Source: Methanoculleus frigidifontis (GTDB taxonomy: Archaea; Halobacteriota; Methanomicrobia; Methanomicrobiales; Methanoculleaceae). Taken from it: a DNA stretch of 64,000 nt. Numbering within the stretch: the stretch's first letter is position 1; each line of letters begins with the position of its first letter. Both the position numbers and the translations under genes were made by a program. Positions 16,484-23,914 of the stretch are shown one piece after another. Below the pieces are notes generated by a model. It worked only from the letters and a program-made list of their open reading frames with translations, ran no database searches and was not told the DNA's origin. Where the stretch lies: NCBI RefSeq assembly GCF_030464345.1, contig NZ_VCYH01000005.1, forward strand, positions 1 to 64,000, in the 5' to 3' direction.

Positions 16484-17395
16484 GTGATCCTGATAGAATC
16501 GGTTTTTCGGCGATACGGGCCTGTGGCGGGACTGCTCGTCGTACTGTTCCTTCTGCTGATCGCGTATCTCCTGGCCGGTGCAGGGGAGGCCGGCGGCCTC
16601 CCGCCCCTCGACGCCCCCCGGGTACTCATTCTGTTTGCCGTCGGGGTCTTTGCGGGAGTGCTCGGCGGTCTCCTCGGGGTTGGCGGAGCGACCATCATGC
16701 TGCCGATCATGTACTTTTATCTCGGATTTCCTGAGACAATCGCGATCGGGACCGGGCTCTTCGTGGTCATCTTTACTTCGCTTTCCGGAGCGTACGGTCA
16801 CGTTTCCCGGAGAAATGCCGACCTCGCGGTCGCTAAGTGGCTTGCCCTCGGCGGCATCGCCGGGGTGATCGCCGGTTCGTGGCTCTTCACCCTGCTTGCG
16901 GGAGAGACCGGACTCCTCGGACTTATCCTGGGCATCGTCTTCCTCGTGCCGGCGATACAGATGATCCGGGAAGGGCTCTTTCAGAGGGAGCCCGCGCGGG
17001 GATATGCGGTCGGTGCCGACCGGCCGGCGTGGGCGGTTCCCGGATTCGGGCTCGTGGTCGGCGTGCTCACCGGGGTGACCGGCCTCGGGGGCGGGTATGC
17101 CCTGGTACCGGGGCTCATCTATATCTTCGGCGTTCCGGTCTACGTCACGATGGGGACGAGTCTTGCTGCACTGATTCCGATGGCGGTCATCGGCGGCGGG
17201 ATAAAAGTGGTGCAGGGTTTTGTGGCGGTCGGCGCGGGGCTGATCCTGGCCCTGGGTTCGGTCCTCGGGGCGCAGATCGGTGCGGCCACCATCAGGCGCT
17301 TCTCCCCTGAAATCCTGAAGCTGATCTTCGGGCTCTACTTCGCATACGCGGCGATCCGGTTTATTGCAGAGTATTTCGGCGTTGCGCTGCCGTAG
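16484..17395 (+). CDS. TSUP family (TauE/SafE) anion exporter
   Basis: This 303-residue integral membrane protein has eight or so helices arranged as two related halves. Each half has the glycine-rich TSUP signature: FAGVLGGLLGVGGATIMLPIMYF near residue 55 and VVGVLTGVTGLGGGYALVPGLIY near 190. TSUP proteins move sulfite, sulfoacetate, taurine-derived or other small organic anions; the substrate here is not evident. The frame starts at GTG 16484. No ATG is available before the first helix, and a GTG at 16523 would cut into it. Confidence 0.85.
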   Translation: MILIESVFRRYGPVAGLLVVLFLLLIAYLLAGAGEAGGLPPLDAPRVLILFAVGVFAGVLGGLLGVGGATIMLPIMYFYLGFPETIAIGTGLFVVIFTSLSGAYGHVSRRNADLAVAKWLALGGIAGVIAGSWLFTLLAGETGLLGLILGIVFLVPAIQMIREGLFQREPARGYAVGADRPAWAVPGFGLVVGVLTGVTGLGGGYALVPGLIYIFGVPVYVTMGTSLAALIPMAVIGGGIKVVQGFVAVGAGLILALGSVLGAQIGAATIRRFSPEILKLIFGLYFAYAAIRFIAEYFGVALP

Positions 17396-17466: not shown

Positions 17467-17480
17467 GGTGATTCTGCCTG
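17467..17480 (+). promoter_or_regulatory. Ribosome site GGTGAT and CTG start candidate of the Nramp-like gene
   Basis: GGTGAT at 17467-17472 is followed after 5 bases by CTG at 17478, the first plausible start codon after an in-frame TGA at 17469. No ATG, GTG or TTG occurs in this frame before GTG 17568, which would delete the first membrane helix. Confidence 0.5.
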
Positions 17481-20105
17481 ACATCCCGGGCAATTCGTGA
17501 TCGTCTCCCTCCATGGCTGAATGAACGGCTCTTCTTCCTCGGGCCCGCTCTTGTACTTGCCGTCGAAGTGAGCGGTGAGACGGGCATTACCGAACTGCTC
17601 GGAGCAGGTGCAGCCTACGGCTACGGGCTGATCGCGGTCATCGTCCTGACCCTGATCTTTAAGTACGCGTTCACGAGCGGGATCGCCAGGTATACGATAT
17701 CGCAGGGCAGGCATATCTTCGACGGCCTCCGGGAGATTCCGGGCCCGAAGAACTGGGAAGTCATCTTCATCATGTTCATCTACCTGATGGAGACGATAGC
17801 CTTCGGCGGCATCGCCCTCGTCGCGGCGGCGATGCTGACCGGGCTCATGCCAGGGCTCCCGACGCGGGAAGTAGTCGCGGTCTTTGGTGTCGTTCTGATT
17901 GTCTTTCTCCTCTGGAAAGACTCGTACGAGAGGTTCGAGCACATCCTCACCATAATGGGGTGCGTGCTCATCTTCGGTATCCTCTACAGCCTTTTTGCCA
18001 TCGATCTTCCGAACAGTGGAGAGGTTGTCCACGGCTTTGCATGCATCCTCGAGCATCAGTCGCTGATCACCATCATGGCGCTGATGGGAGCCGTGGGATC
18101 GGGTCTCAACCTGCTGCTCTATTCGGTCTGGCTGCACGAGAAGATCGGCGACCGGCATGGAGAATCGTACTTCAGGGCGCATATGCGGAGCGTCAATCTC
18201 AATCTCGTCCTGGTCTTCATCATCGTCGGGATCTTTGCATTCGCGTTCATCGCGATGGGGTATGCCGGGCTGCACGGCCACGGCGCGGATCACCACAGCC
18301 TCGAGGAGATTCTCGGCGGGATCCTCCATATTTTAGACGACCTCCCGTACGGTGCCAGCGTCTTTCTGATTACCGGTTTCTTCACCCTCTTTGGTGCCAC
18401 AATGAGCGGCATGGACGGCCGTGCCCGCGCGATCGCCGCGATCCTCCGGTCGACCACCACCGTCGGCCTCGACGAGAAGACCCTGTACCGGATCATCCTG
18501 CTCGCCTTTGCCGCAATCATGCTCTGCGTTGTCTTCTTCGGGCACCCGGTGGATGTGATCCATCACGTCGCGGCCGCGGCATCGATCATGTTCGCGGTCC
18601 TCGGGTTTCTGATCATCTACCTCGACTCCCGGCTGCCTGCCTACGCCCGCGGCTCGAGCAGGTGGCTTGCGGTCATGGGTATCGGGAGCATCGGCTTTCT
18701 TGGGGTCGCCCTCCTGCAGGAGGAGATGTACCTGACCTTCGGCATACCCCTGCTGGAGCGGCTTGCCGTCCTGGGGTGCGTCCTCTATTTCCTCCTCAAG
18801 ACGAACCTTGTCCAGCGGGCGATAGCCGGATACCTGACGCCCGTCGACACCGCGATGGTCGTGGTGATCTTCTCCCTCTTCTCGATCTATGGAACGGTCC
18901 GCGGGATTCCGTTCGGCGATGTCATCATCAACTTCCGCGACCTCGGCCCCGTGATCGCCGGTCTGCTCGGCGGCCCCATCGCCGGGCTTCTCACCGGTCT
19001 GATCGGTGGAGCCTACCGCTACTCCCTCGGCGGGTGGACAGCGCTGGCCTGCTTTGCCGGCACCGTTGCTGCAGGCCTGATAGCCGGGTACTTCTCGAAC
19101 CGCTGGGGCGCCTTCACCTACCTCCGGTTCATCTCTCTCGGTATCCTGGTGGAAGCGGTGCACCTGCTAATCCTCGTGCCGCTCCTCACCTATCCGGCAC
19201 CCACTGCCGAGGTCATCGAGGTCATCAGGATGGTCTATCTCCCGATGACCGTCACCAACACGCTCGGGCTCATCTTTTTCCTTATGATGATACGAAACCA
19301 GGATGCGGCAGGTCCGTTCAGGGCGCTCGATCCTGCCGGAAGCCTCAGAAGGACGGTTCAGCATCTCAAGGCCGGCAGCTTTACCTGGAGCGAGACGGGA
19401 GGCGTTGTCATCCTCATTGGTCTGGCTCTGGCCTTTCTGGTGTCGGCCGTATCGGATCAGGAACGTATCACCATCGGCATCGTCTTGTTCGAACATATCG
19501 CCGTGATAGGCTTCGTCGCGTTTCTCCTGGCGCAGACAGGTCTGTTCCGGCGCCTCGCGCTGGGGAGGCCGGTGACGCAGGACATTCTCTGGATGGCGAC
19601 GATCTTCGGTCTTGTCTCGGTATACGGGACGATGAGTGATGTTCAGATCGGGGAGTTCATCGTCACTTTCCGCGATCTTGGGCCCCTGCTTGCAGGGCTG
19701 CTCGGCGGCCCGGCCGCCGGTCTGCTGGCCGGCCTGCTCGGCGGCACCTACGCCCTCTTCTTTGATGATTCCACGACCATCGCCTCCGGGATCACGCCAC
19801 TCATCGCCGGGCTTCTGGCCGGATACCTCTCCCGCCGCTGGAGGGGCAGGCAGACGTATCTCCGGCTAATCTTCCTTGGAGGTCTTGCAGCGTGCTTCTC
19901 TGTCTTCGTCCTCGCACCGTCTGCGGGTGGGTTCCTCGAGATCGCCGGAACGATGCTGATCCCGATGATCCTGGCGAATGCCGTCGGGCTTGTCGTCTTC
20001 TTTGCTATCCTGCGCGACAGGGGCATTGAAACAGTATTGAATGCGGGCAGTCCCTCCCCTGCGGGTGAAACCCCCCCTCCTCCTGAAGGCGTTCAGGATC
20101 TTTGA
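17478..20105 (+). CDS. Nramp-like transporter fused to two LytS-type 5TM receptor domains
   Basis: This membrane protein has 875 residues from CTG 17478, or 845 from GTG 17568. The N-terminal 390 residues follow the Nramp/SLC11 fold: helix 1 LGPALVLAVEVSGETGI, then GAGAAYGYGL, KYAFTSGIARY, YLMETIAFGGIAL and helix 6 GAVGSGLNLLLYSVWLHEK. The metal-binding DPGN and MPH motifs are replaced by SGET and GSG, so classical Mn/Fe transport is doubtful. The C-terminal half holds two 5TMR_LYT modules, each with the signature YGTxxGI...NFRDLGPVIAGLLGGP...GLIGGAYRYSLGG (about residues 450-600 and 670-830; the second has TFRDLGPLLAGLLGGP). Such domains sense ligands in LytS-type kinases. There is no kinase or output domain, so the fusion may be a ligand-gated transporter or transceptor. 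Confidence 0.75.
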   Translation: MTSRAIRDRLPPWLNERLFFLGPALVLAVEVSGETGITELLGAGAAYGYGLIAVIVLTLIFKYAFTSGIARYTISQGRHIFDGLREIPGPKNWEVIFIMFIYLMETIAFGGIALVAAAMLTGLMPGLPTREVVAVFGVVLIVFLLWKDSYERFEHILTIMGCVLIFGILYSLFAIDLPNSGEVVHGFACILEHQSLITIMALMGAVGSGLNLLLYSVWLHEKIGDRHGESYFRAHMRSVNLNLVLVFIIVGIFAFAFIAMGYAGLHGHGADHHSLEEILGGILHILDDLPYGASVFLITGFFTLFGATMSGMDGRARAIAAILRSTTTVGLDEKTLYRIILLAFAAIMLCVVFFGHPVDVIHHVAAAASIMFAVLGFLIIYLDSRLPAYARGSSRWLAVMGIGSIGFLGVALLQEEMYLTFGIPLLERLAVLGCVLYFLLKTNLVQRAIAGYLTPVDTAMVVVIFSLFSIYGTVRGIPFGDVIINFRDLGPVIAGLLGGPIAGLLTGLIGGAYRYSLGGWTALACFAGTVAAGLIAGYFSNRWGAFTYLRFISLGILVEAVHLLILVPLLTYPAPTAEVIEVIRMVYLPMTVTNTLGLIFFLMMIRNQDAAGPFRALDPAGSLRRTVQHLKAGSFTWSETGGVVILIGLALAFLVSAVSDQERITIGIVLFEHIAVIGFVAFLLAQTGLFRRLALGRPVTQDILWMATIFGLVSVYGTMSDVQIGEFIVTFRDLGPLLAGLLGGPAAGLLAGLLGGTYALFFDDSTTIASGITPLIAGLLAGYLSRRWRGRQTYLRLIFLGGLAACFSVFVLAPSAGGFLEIAGTMLIPMILANAVGLVVFFAILRDRGIETVLNAGSPSPAGETPPPPEGVQDL

Positions 20106-20358
20106 TGCGGGGTGCCCCGGCTTCAGGTATCCGGCTTTCTGTGAGCACCACTGGAACGGACGCAGGCTGCATCGGCAGGTTCTATATGGGTGCATGGAGA
20201 AGCTCTGATCAAACTCGAACCGTCTGCGAGGAGCTCGGGGCATACCGGGAGGATCTCTCTGCAGGTATGTACGTCGTTGTCCGGCTATAGGGGGCTGCTG
20301 GCATCGGTTCGGCTGCGTCCGGTGTGCTTGCCGGCGCCGGGTGCTGAGGGGTGTTCTC
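20106..20358. other. Intergenic region before the DUF47-like gene
   Basis: This 253-base stretch has a TATA-like TTCTATATGGG near 20180 and a ribosome site GAGGGGTG ahead of the ATG at 20359. Short frames in it show no protein-like composition. I see no RNA gene or repeat. Confidence 0.4.
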
Positions 20359-22305
20359 ATGCCTGCTGAGAAGAAGTGCATCATAGAAGAACTGGGCGAA
20401 GGCGATCTCCTGCTCCCTGGATTGGTGAACACCGCCCTTGTAGCAAATGACCGCATCAAATACTACTTCACTCTGCTCCAGACCGCCTGCGACCGGGCGG
20501 ACCATCCGAACCGCGAGTTCCCCACCCTCCGGATGGAGCGGGAGAGCGCCGGGGTTGAGAACGCAGCACTTGACGATGTGGTCGCAGGGACACGGGTAAG
20601 CGGCATCGGGGTGTACTCCGTCCCTTGCGCCGGCGAGATCTTTGCTGCCGTCCGCGGGTACATGCAGGAGATGGCGCTTCCGGTTATCTCCCGGGGCGGA
20701 CAGGGTGTGGAGGCGTTTGAAAGCAGGCTTTCCGCCCTGCTCGCAGAGCTGCCAAAATCCGATGCAGAACCGGTCGCCGGGAGCGTGATCTGGAGTATTA
20801 CGTCCGGCGACCGGAGTGCGGGAGACAGCCTTCACCTCCTGGTCATGGATCTGCACAAGGAACTCAATGCCTTGCAGCGAAGCATTTCGCGGGAGAACAT
20901 CGACGGGGCGCAGACGTACCTCCTGGGCGACGGTGACGCGGATCGCGTGGCGGTGTTCATGGCCGGCCTCAACCGCACCGCTCCCTTAAAGTTCGACCAT
21001 CCCGGGCTCGGAACGACCGCCACCCGCACCGGCAGGAAACTCGTGCTCCAGAACGACATCGGTCTCACCGACGCGCACGTGCTGGTGATCACCGTCGAGG
21101 AGATGACGGTCACCATCACCTATACCGACGTGCATATGCCCCGCCTGCAGTTCTTCCACAGCCTCTTTGAGGCGTGGGATGTAGCCTGGGAGGACACGCT
21201 CTCCCGCAGGGGGAGCACGCGGCTGGAGGAGAACCTCTACCACCTCTCGGTCGGCAGATATACGGCACGGGACGAGTCCGATCTCCGGGCGTTCCTGATG
21301 CACCTCGGCTCCCGGCTCGTCTTTCTGATCGACTGGAACCGCGCTCGAAAAAGGCTGGGCAACTTCCTCCGGAACAAGGACGCCGTGACTGTGCTGAAGC
21401 GGGCAGCGGATAATGAATACGGGCATATGGCGTTCCTGAAGCTCGGCGGTGAACGGCTGATCTACGATGCGCTCGAGCTCGCGGCCGGGATGCCCCTGCG
21501 CTACGGCGAACCCCTGCACCAGATCCTCGGGCGTGAAAAGACGGTGGAATACCTCCAGTGGGTGCTCAGAACAGCATCTGTCGGCCTCTGCACCAACCGT
21601 TCTCTTCTCCTCGTTCAGGATGAGATTAAAGCCGAGCTGCTCGGATACTTCCGATCGGCGCGTGAAAAACTTTTGGAAGTCTGCGAGGAGCATGCAGTCC
21701 TCGCAGTGGAAGTGGCGACGGTTCTCCGCGACTCGCTGCTCGTGCTGCAGCGCGGCGGTGAGATCGATTTCATCTGCCGGAGTGCACAGCGGGCGAAACG
21801 CTGGGAACGAAGAGCCGATGAGTACGTGACGACGGTCAGATCCCTCTCCCGGCGGATCGAGGCTGCCGAGTTCTTCTTTGAACTGATCGGCGTGGCGGAC
21901 GACGTGGTGGACTGCCTGGAAGAGGCCTGTTTCTTTGTAACCCTGGTGCCCTCCTTCACCCGATCGCCGGGTGTCTACGGGGAGCTCGGAAATCTGGCGG
22001 AGATTGCCCTGATGCAGGGGCAGGAGTTTGTGAAGGCGCTCATTGCGGTACAATGTGTCCATCGGGGAGGCGATCGCGAGGATATGCAGGTCTTCCTCGA
22101 AGCGGTCGATCGGATGGTCGGCCTGGAGCAGGAGTGCGACGAGGCGCTCCGGCAGGCGGAGAAGAGAATCCTTCTGGAGAGCACGGATTATCGCGAGATG
22201 CGGGTGGCTTTTGAGCTTGCTCGCACCATTGAAGAGTCCACCAACGCCTCCATGAAGGCCGCGTATATTCTCCGGGACAATATCCTGGAAGGGATGGGGA
22301 GGTAG
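20359..22305 (+). CDS. DUF47/PhoU-like helical protein with a long unique N-terminus
   Basis: This soluble protein has 648 residues from ATG 20359, which has GAGGGGTG upstream; a GTG at 20341 is less likely. The last 210 residues (from about IDFICRSAQRAKRWERRADEYVTTVRSL) form an all-helical DUF47/PhoU-like region with a DDVVDCLEEACFF stretch, as in proteins that accompany Pit phosphate transporters. The first 440 residues match no family I recognise. They contain helical and mixed blocks (RIKYYFTLLQTACDRADHP, LHLLVMDLHKELNALQ, RLVFLIDWNRARKRLGNFLR). It ends one base before the PPDK-like gene, so the two are an operon. A link to phosphate or polyphosphate control is inferred from the DUF47 part and the adjacent ppk-ppx operon. 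Confidence 0.65.
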   Translation: MPAEKKCIIEELGEGDLLLPGLVNTALVANDRIKYYFTLLQTACDRADHPNREFPTLRMERESAGVENAALDDVVAGTRVSGIGVYSVPCAGEIFAAVRGYMQEMALPVISRGGQGVEAFESRLSALLAELPKSDAEPVAGSVIWSITSGDRSAGDSLHLLVMDLHKELNALQRSISRENIDGAQTYLLGDGDADRVAVFMAGLNRTAPLKFDHPGLGTTATRTGRKLVLQNDIGLTDAHVLVITVEEMTVTITYTDVHMPRLQFFHSLFEAWDVAWEDTLSRRGSTRLEENLYHLSVGRYTARDESDLRAFLMHLGSRLVFLIDWNRARKRLGNFLRNKDAVTVLKRAADNEYGHMAFLKLGGERLIYDALELAAGMPLRYGEPLHQILGREKTVEYLQWVLRTASVGLCTNRSLLLVQDEIKAELLGYFRSAREKLLEVCEEHAVLAVEVATVLRDSLLVLQRGGEIDFICRSAQRAKRWERRADEYVTTVRSLSRRIEAAEFFFELIGVADDVVDCLEEACFFVTLVPSFTRSPGVYGELGNLAEIALMQGQEFVKALIAVQCVHRGGDREDMQVFLEAVDRMVGLEQECDEALRQAEKRILLESTDYREMRVAFELARTIEESTNASMKAAYILRDNILEGMGR

Positions 22306-22306
22306 G

Positions 22307-23914
22307 ATGGCGATGGAAGACGATACACAACGACTGGCAACCTTCGGCTACGGCGTGCAGGAAGATCTTCCTGCATCTGTTTTCGGGAATAAAGCTGCCA
22401 ATCTTGCCCGTATGGCCGCTCTTGGCATCCCGGTGCCGCCGGGATTTTCCCTGAACGTCTCGATATGCGAGGACTATTTCCGGAACGGCGAGACATTCCC
22501 ATCCGACATCCCCCGGATTCTTGATGAAGGAGTCGCCTTCCTCGAACGTGCGACGGGGCAGAGCCTCGGGAGTCTCAGGCGGCCGCTTCTGGTCTCGGTC
22601 AGATCGGGTGCGCCGGTCTCTATGCCGGGTATGATGGAGACGCTCCTCAATGTGGGTCTCTCGCGCAGGACCATCCGAGGCCTCATCCTGCAGACAGGAA
22701 ACCCCCGCTTTGCCTGGGACTCCTACCGGCGGCTGCTTGAAAACTTCGGGACGGTTGCCTGTGGCCAGGATCCGGCTCCTTACCGGTCTTTGCTTGCGGA
22801 TACGCTGGCAGAGGAGGGTGTGCCGGACGAGGCTGAGCTGGATGCGGCCAGCCTCCGGAACCTCTGCGGCGAATACGAGCGTCACTACCTGGAGTCGACC
22901 GGTGGTGCTGCGTTCCCGGTAGACGTCCGGGCCCAGATATTGATGGCGGTTGCGGCCGTTATCCGATCCTGGATGAGCCCCCGCGCCGAGGCGTTCCGCC
23001 GGCTACATCCGATGGGAGATCTCCGCGGGACGGCGGTAGTGGTGCAGGCGATGGTCTTTGGAAACATGGGAGCGGACTCCGGAGCGGGAGTGGCGTTTAC
23101 CAGGAATCCGTGGTCGGGTGAGAATGAATTCCTGCTTGACTTTAAGTTCGGAGCCCAGGGAGAAGACGTGGTCTCAGGAGAGCAGGCTGCGGTGAGCTGC
23201 CGGGAGTTTTCCGGGAGAATGCCTGCTGTCTACGAGAACCTTAGCCGGATTGGAAGGACACTGGAGATGCACTTTGGGGATATGCAGGATATTGAGTTCA
23301 CCGTGCAGAAGGGCGTGCTGTATATTCTCCAGAGCCGCGCCGGAAAGCGAACGCCGCTCGCTGCACTACGGATCGCTGTGGAGGCATGCAACGAGGGGCT
23401 CCTGTCCCGGGATCAGGCGCTTGCACTCCTCGAGGGTCTCGATCTCGATGCGATCACGCTGCAGAAGGTGGTAGCGGATGAGCCATCGCTGGGCGCCGGC
23501 ACCTCCGCCTCCACAGGTGTCGCGACGGGAAGCATCGTGTTTTCGAGCGACCGGGCGCAGCAGGCGTCGGCCGGCGGCCCGGTGATTCTGGTCAGGGAGA
23601 CGGCATCCACGGACGATCTTCGCGGCATCAGCGCATCGGACGGCATCCTTGTTGCTCGTGGTGCCAGAACGTCTCATGCCGCAGTGGTTGCCCGGCAGAT
23701 GGGAAAAATCTGTATTGTGAACTGCACAGGGCTTGCCATTGACGAGCGCCGCCGGCGGTGCACGCTCGGCGGCCATGAACTGCGGGAAGGTGACGTCATA
23801 ACGCTGGACGGAGATACTGGTCTGATCTACCGCGGACGGGCAGGCATTCTCCATGAGCGGCCCGAGTCTCTTCTCGCAGCAGTCAGAGCCTGGACGGATA
23901 GCCGGAGGGGATAA
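22307..23914 (+). CDS. PPDK-like phosphotransferase lacking the PEP/pyruvate barrel
   Basis: This 535-residue protein has the pyruvate phosphate dikinase ATP-grasp domain (GNKAANLARMAALGIPVPPGF, LVSVRSGAPVSMPGMMETLLNVG, GVAFTRNPWSGENEF, DIEFTVQKGVLYILQSRAGKRT) and the phosphohistidine swivel domain (GARTSHAAVVARQMGKICIV, with His in TSH as the carrier). It stops there: the C-terminal TIM barrel that holds PEP or pyruvate is absent, and no gene nearby supplies it. It can therefore form a phosphohistidine from ATP, but its acceptor is unknown. Barrel-less relatives include rifampicin phosphotransferases, yet the RIF-binding insert is also absent. It starts one base after the DUF47-like gene, with GGGGAGG upstream, and ends 9 bases from the convergent ppx gene. 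Confidence 0.8.
   Translation: MAMEDDTQRLATFGYGVQEDLPASVFGNKAANLARMAALGIPVPPGFSLNVSICEDYFRNGETFPSDIPRILDEGVAFLERATGQSLGSLRRPLLVSVRSGAPVSMPGMMETLLNVGLSRRTIRGLILQTGNPRFAWDSYRRLLENFGTVACGQDPAPYRSLLADTLAEEGVPDEAELDAASLRNLCGEYERHYLESTGGAAFPVDVRAQILMAVAAVIRSWMSPRAEAFRRLHPMGDLRGTAVVVQAMVFGNMGADSGAGVAFTRNPWSGENEFLLDFKFGAQGEDVVSGEQAAVSCREFSGRMPAVYENLSRIGRTLEMHFGDMQDIEFTVQKGVLYILQSRAGKRTPLAALRIAVEACNEGLLSRDQALALLEGLDLDAITLQKVVADEPSLGAGTSASTGVATGSIVFSSDRAQQASAGGPVILVRETASTDDLRGISASDGILVARGARTSHAAVVARQMGKICIVNCTGLAIDERRRRCTLGGHELREGDVITLDGDTGLIYRGRAGILHERPESLLAAVRAWTDSRRG

Follow-up and report, generated by a model that had tools for sequence, protein, structure and literature searches.

An archaeal Nramp-related protein that lacks the canonical metal site and carries two 5TMR modules: a candidate organic-solute carrier

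The window analysed here, a 64,000-nucleotide stretch of the Methanoculleus frigidifontis genome, encodes an 875-residue protein in which an Nramp-related half is followed by two 5TMR modules (Table 1). We propose that this protein is an organic-solute carrier or transceptor built on a non-metal, Nramp-related LeuT-fold half that belongs to the outgroup of PF01566, and we put the probability of this reading, in which transport itself is presumed, at about one half. A transceptor-like function had been suggested from the sequence at the outset and stays the best guess. The original prediction also held that no family with this architecture had been described. However, Nramp-5TMR fusions in archaea have been published: Partipilo & Slotboom (2024; PMC11109136) report NRAMP-like proteins, mostly in archaea, that carry 5TMR modules at the C-terminus, and the window protein resembles those fusions in having PF01566 at its N-terminus, PF07694 at its C-terminus and an archaeal host. 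Where that paper deals with the fusions, metal-site loss, tandem modules and binding-protein neighbours go unmentioned and the partner is taken to be a divalent-metal transporter. What our analysis adds is the family-wide loss of the metal site, the S-component fold of the first module, the inequality of the tandem modules, and the tie of a sister clade to an amino-acid-type binding protein. The NCBIfam name for the family is divalent metal transporter, and the only published comment on the fusion that we found, in the part of PMC11109136 that treats it, likewise assumes metal transport. Our evidence suggests an organic solute and not a metal.

Table 1. Features of the Nramp-5TMR gene and its upstream neighbour (window coordinates)
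Feature	Position	Strand	Description
TauE/SafE (TSUP) permease gene	16484..17395	+	directly upstream, same strand; homolog directly upstream in the sister genome G081
GGTGAT Shine-Dalgarno-like sequence	17467..17472	+	~5 nt upstream of CTG; equal spacing in G081
Whole gene	17478..20105	+	Nramp-related carrier plus two 5TMR/S-component-fold modules, 875 aa, start probably at CTG
Nramp (LeuT-fold family) half	17529..18620	+	residues ~18-381, 10 core TM segments
TM1 DPGN position	17574..17585	+	occupied by G33-E34-T35-G36; GE[SAT]G in the family
TM3 Glu105	17790..17792	+	acidic in 46/46 relatives (45 E, 1 D)
TM6 VMPH position	18096..18107	+	here G207-S208-G209-L210; family motif GxVGSGLN
Repeat unit 1	18663..19292	+	extra TM, H0 and S-component-fold module 1, residues 396-605; N485, R487, R514, C525 kept
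Repeat unit 2	19395..20009	+	extra TM, H0 and module 2, residues 640-844; neither the second Arg nor the Cys is kept

The N-terminal half can be assigned to Nramp by homology. Pfam Nramp (PF01566) matches residues 41-381 with 65.4 bits against a cut-off of 29.8, well beyond what chance would give. A family profile of 23 relatives, compared with the PDB, finds 10ky_A (E=9e-17), the NRAT structure 8ont (3e-10) and DraNramp structures (~4e-7 to ~1e-6); its weakest match, at E=0.063, is 7qia, which we take to be EleNRMT. Because the full-length AlphaFold model was built from 4 sequences and reached a pLDDT of ~35 in this half, the fold assignment rests on sequence homology.

The metal site of this half has been replaced. 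With the motifs placed by profile alignment to 10ky_A, the D, N, M and H ligands prove to be gone, as originally predicted, but the register proposed at that time (SGET for DPGN, GSG for MPH) was off by one residue. None of the 46 relatives with 5TMR modules has D, N, M or H at the four metal-ligand positions: D has become G or V, and N has become G or a gap, while M is S, A or G and H is L in all 46. The canonical TM6 A/CxxMPH is therefore absent, and the window protein reads A205-V-G-S208-G-L210 instead. The substitutes are themselves conserved. G33 and G36 each occur in 44 of the 46 relatives and E34 in 40, with R or D at the latter position in two groups, and G207, L210, W218 and R315 are invariant. 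Since the replacement motifs are conserved across all 46 relatives, the loss is a family trait, and an old one, with the replacement residues under constraint. Moreover, dN/dS against the sister genome is ~0.18 for the Nramp half and repeat unit 1 alike (NG86 estimate), which argues that the window gene is not a decayed copy. In the comparison of the TM3/TM9 proton pathway, two alignments pair E105 with different MntH/DraNramp glutamates.

How does this family compare with other divergent Nramps? Nramp-related proteins without DPGN and MPH are a recognised group outside canonical SLC11 (PMC12873925, PMC9606685). One of them, MntG/YcsG, is placed outside the canonical Nramps (PMC12873925) and is reported to import Mn2+ in B. 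subtilis (PMC10448178). The window protein is likewise a PF01566 homolog that lacks both motifs, but unlike these proteins its family has S-component-fold modules and a motif pair of its own, GE[SAT]G and GxVGSGLN. The Mg2+-transporting NRMTs keep the TM1 Asp within a DxxG - TxxA/T site (PMC8806188). EleNRMT and the window protein share a Gly at the Asn position of DPGN. Unlike the NRMTs, however, the window family has Gly in place of the TM1 Asp, and the window protein reads GxxG - AxxS where NRMTs have DxxG - TxxA/T.

The C-terminal half was predicted to hold two 5TMR-type modules, and Pfam 5TM-5TMR_LYT (PF07694) indeed matches it in two stretches (209.9 bits, cut-off 24.6). Module 1 is predicted to have the fold of an ECF S-component. 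Its AlphaFold model, made from 10 sequences, has a pLDDT of 86.6, and each of its best 26 Foldseek matches in the PDB is an entry for an ECF S-component or an ECF transporter, with a best E of 3e-3, probabilities of up to 1.00 and no single match below E=0.001. This agrees with the relation between S-components and 5TMR domains published in PMC11109136. An ECF motor as docking partner of the modules was considered and rejected: the genome has EcfT-like proteins, yet in the protein sequence no AxxxA motif occurs in helix 1 of either module (residues 456-474 and 702-720).

We used the E. coli BtsS sequence as a ruler for the ligand residues. The pyruvate site of BtsS includes R72, R99 and C110, and S113G abolished pyruvate sensing (PMC10653868). 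Module 1 resembles BtsS and PyrS in having NxR, Arg and Cys at BtsS spacing and an H0 with a polar pair: N485, R487, R514 and C525 correspond, with identical spacing, to N70, R72, R99 and C110. Three of four pyruvate-site residues are thus retained. The fourth, Ser113, is Gly in module 1, so we do not claim BtsS-like pyruvate sensing, and the ligand of the module need not be pyruvate. The window protein also differs from BtsS and PyrS in that it has no kinase or other output domain, its modules are fused behind a transporter, and module 2 is degenerate. Here TFR stands at NxR and only R72 is kept, with R99 replaced by A and C110 by S. The original prediction missed that the two modules are unequal, with R487, R514 and C525 kept in module 1 and module 2 decayed. 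Repeat unit 2 is only 52% identical between the window genome and the sister genome, whereas repeat unit 1 is 78-79% identical, and the dN/dS of module 2 for the same pair is ~0.30 (NG86). Module 2 thus appears to be kept as a domain and relaxed in detail. Across the family, the R/R/C set is retained in most single modules and lost in several lineages.

Hydropathy divides the chain into 24 segments, namely 10 Nramp core helices and then two repeats of an extra TM, H0 and an S-type module. If the S-fold has six helices, a count that assumes that two short helices are read as one hydropathy segment, the extra TM before each H0 would give an even number of passes per repeat, and both modules could therefore face the same way. 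Positive charges downstream of H0 and of each module agree with a predicted cytoplasmic location at those points. The chain ends 31 residues past the last TM segment, and neither Pfam nor hydropathy reveals a cytoplasmic output domain, in line with what had been noted from the sequence.

A search that covered 232 genomes from the class and 393 from the phylum found the fusion in Methanosarcina-type genomes and in the window's own order, where five families have it; within the window's own family it is restricted to the window's genus. The collected set holds 38 proteins with one module, six with two and two with three, as well as six Nramp-only relatives. In the module tree, the modules of L003 and L004, three in each protein, cluster with moderate support, which fits duplication within the lineage. 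A scan of viral contigs found no relatives. The window genome encodes a second Nramp-related protein (L002; G000:C4:115334-116200) that has no 5TMR and reads ATGE at the DPGN position. Four relatives (L036, L055, L056 and L057; g36) combine the Nramp half with two strongly diverged 5TMR modules and a conserved soluble C-terminal stretch of ~290 aa. This stretch has no family match at the curated cut-off and a single sub-threshold Pfam match, FAD-oxidase_C. The idea that it is a degenerate histidine kinase was dropped, with no Pfam or PDB match and an hhalign probability of 0.1%.

One clade of relatives (support 99/97) has a genetic partner. A LivJ-type binding-protein gene (Peripla_BP_6) adjoins the carrier gene in all 26 members, adjacency in the smaller loci having been checked by tblastn, and in none of the 20 other 5TMR-bearing members. 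In 25 of the 26 it lies downstream, mostly at -45 to +30 nt, and in the remaining one it lies 79 nt upstream. Where it is downstream, it starts at or near the carrier stop codon, often overlapping it, and the two genes are usually translationally coupled. The best PDB matches of these binding proteins are branched-chain amino-acid-binding structures (3td9, 1e-47), and nearly all keep the residues aligned with S79, T102, Y150 and E226 (E/D) of the LivJ amino-acid site. LivJ-type binding proteins usually work with a LivH/LivM permease. No ABC permease of that type (PF02653, above cut-off) was found in any of 25 genomes tested, 20 of which have the binding protein, whereas 12 of 14 control genomes scored above the cut-off. 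The Nramp-5TMR protein is therefore the only evident membrane partner. Distances among carriers and among binding proteins are correlated (rho 0.78, Mantel p 0.0005), a correlation that co-inheritance of adjacent genes also yields.

Translational coupling has been used in this way before, in a 2025 paper that proposed TAXI-GltS as a new binding-protein-dependent transporter (PMC12344293). Like TAXI-GltS, the sister-clade relatives couple a binding-protein gene to a secondary-transporter-like gene. They differ in having a LeuT/Nramp fold rather than the GltS elevator and a LivJ-type binding protein, and at the window locus the partner is absent. Indeed, the window gene falls outside the binding-protein clade and has no binding-protein neighbour within the window. 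The window genome holds no dedicated binding protein either: its Peripla_BP_6 matches comprise a fusion of 766 aa and some shorter frames on another contig. The amino-acid assignment is therefore borrowed from the sister clade. The 766-aa chain (L081 1279-3579, plus strand; G000:C3) joins a LivJ-type and an apparently BMP-type binding-protein domain. At six sister loci (L047, L046, L051, L071, L072 and L073), a B12-binding radical SAM gene lies upstream of the Nramp-5TMR gene and its binding-protein partner, close to or overlapping them.

What might such a protein do? In the organic-solute reading, the S-component/LytS (5TMR)-fold modules would face outward, joined to the carrier half. On the outer face of the membrane, the two arginines and the cysteine of module 1 may bind a small carboxylate. 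Once occupied, the module would either shift the carrier half into another conformation (gating) or hand the ligand over to it. The carrier would then move an organic solute, probably a small organic acid or a compound that resembles an amino acid, through a glycine-rich site formed by the GE[SAT]G motif of TM1 and the GSGLN motif of TM6. In the window's genus, module 2 is a diverged copy without ligand residues and is probably structural or specialised. We favour an organic solute because the metal ligands are gone in 46/46 relatives, conserved alternatives stand in their place, and a LivJ-type protein is coupled to the carrier in the sister clade; the case is weakened because E34 and E105 could still coordinate a cation. 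More tentatively, and at well below even odds, the carrier, receptor module and LivJ-type protein of the sister clade might work together as one system for ATP-independent uptake, or for uptake plus sensing. Such a system would be a class of binding-protein-dependent transporters based on the LeuT fold, and the window protein would be its tandem-module variant that has no binding protein. If the coupling is functional, a LeuT-fold carrier would join the few types of secondary transporter that work with binding proteins, and a transporter, the receptor fold common to vitamin transporters and a soluble receptor would be united in one system. For a part of PF01566 that is uncharacterised, the coupled binding protein is also a genetic partner that can be tested directly.

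Alternatively, the protein could be a divalent-metal transporter (Mn2+/Mg2+) whose site has been rebuilt from the TM1 and TM3 glutamates and whose 5TMR modules regulate uptake by a metabolite. This is the suggestion, made where PMC11109136 discusses the fusion, that ion transport is bridged to signal sensing. Homology to PF01566, the family name and the interpretation given in that discussion all speak for metal, as do the presence of E34 in 40 relatives and of an acidic residue at E105 in all 46. ZnuABC-type metal-uptake genes lie near six to seven relatives, several of them in f5; at most of the six loci with a radical SAM gene they are downstream on the other strand. Together with the precedent of MntG, these genes leave room for a role in metal transport. 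However, all four metal ligands are lost (D to G, N to G, M to S, H to L), including the Asp that NRMTs keep (PMC8806188), two groups have R or D in place of E34, and the closest genetic partner in the relatives is an amino-acid-type binding protein. We consider metal transport unlikely.

Rather doubtful, too, is a receptor that does not transport, in which the Nramp-like half would be a scaffold or signal-transducing membrane domain while the modules, together with the binding protein where relatives have one, would detect a metabolite outside the cell and perhaps signal to a separate partner. As PMC11109136 presents them, 5TMRs are receptor domains of kinases, cyclases and PP2C phosphatases, and a 5TMR-SpoIIE phosphatase is encoded in the same genome (45942-47306); the extra C-terminal stretch of the four g36 relatives would also suit a receptor. 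The window protein, however, has no output domain, and its Nramp half is about as conserved as module 1 (mean identity 48% and 45%). Its TM1 and TM6 glycines are conserved, as expected of a working carrier, and several lineages retain the carrier motifs although the ligand residues of their modules have decayed.

It can be ruled out that an error in sequencing or assembly has fused two separate genes, as dozens of genomes have the fusion, with module numbers from one to three, nothing speaks for an error, and frameshifted copies are confined to other genomes (G015 and G019). The view that this is a single gene with no artefactual join is borne out by an 878-aa ortholog in G081, the other genome of the genus, which has the same architecture and 71% identity. 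The open frame runs from 17472 to a stop codon at 20103-20105. It has no in-frame ATG, GTG or TTG upstream of TM1, and an in-frame TGA overlaps GGTGAT. The CTG at 17478 is most likely the start codon, and the simplest reading of the sequence, because G081 has the same CTG at identical spacing from GGTGAT and because a start at the earliest in-frame GTG, 17568, would split TM1 in half. In G015 and G019, the Nramp-5TMR gene (L074, L075) is broken by 1-nt indels. A programmed frameshift common to both was rejected, as the indel positions differ and one adjoins Ns, where an assembly error is possible.

The TauE/SafE permease is a possible operon partner of the window gene. The other neighbours form a polyphosphate/glycogen-type gene set that comprises a phosphorylase, Ppx/GppA, a truncated pyruvate phosphate dikinase (PPDK) and a CHAD-phosphoesterase. 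The 5TMR phosphatase mentioned above, on the minus strand, joins a LytS-type module to SpoIIE/PP2C and keeps NVR, R and C. A 654-aa protein (20341-22305, plus strand), with no match in Pfam or NCBIfam, is paired with the truncated PPDK and also occurs near the Nramp-5TMR gene of another genome (G120; L042). The PPDK homolog itself (22307-23914, plus strand; 535 aa) ends after the phosphohistidine domain, and its match reaches position 526 of 865 of TIGR01828.
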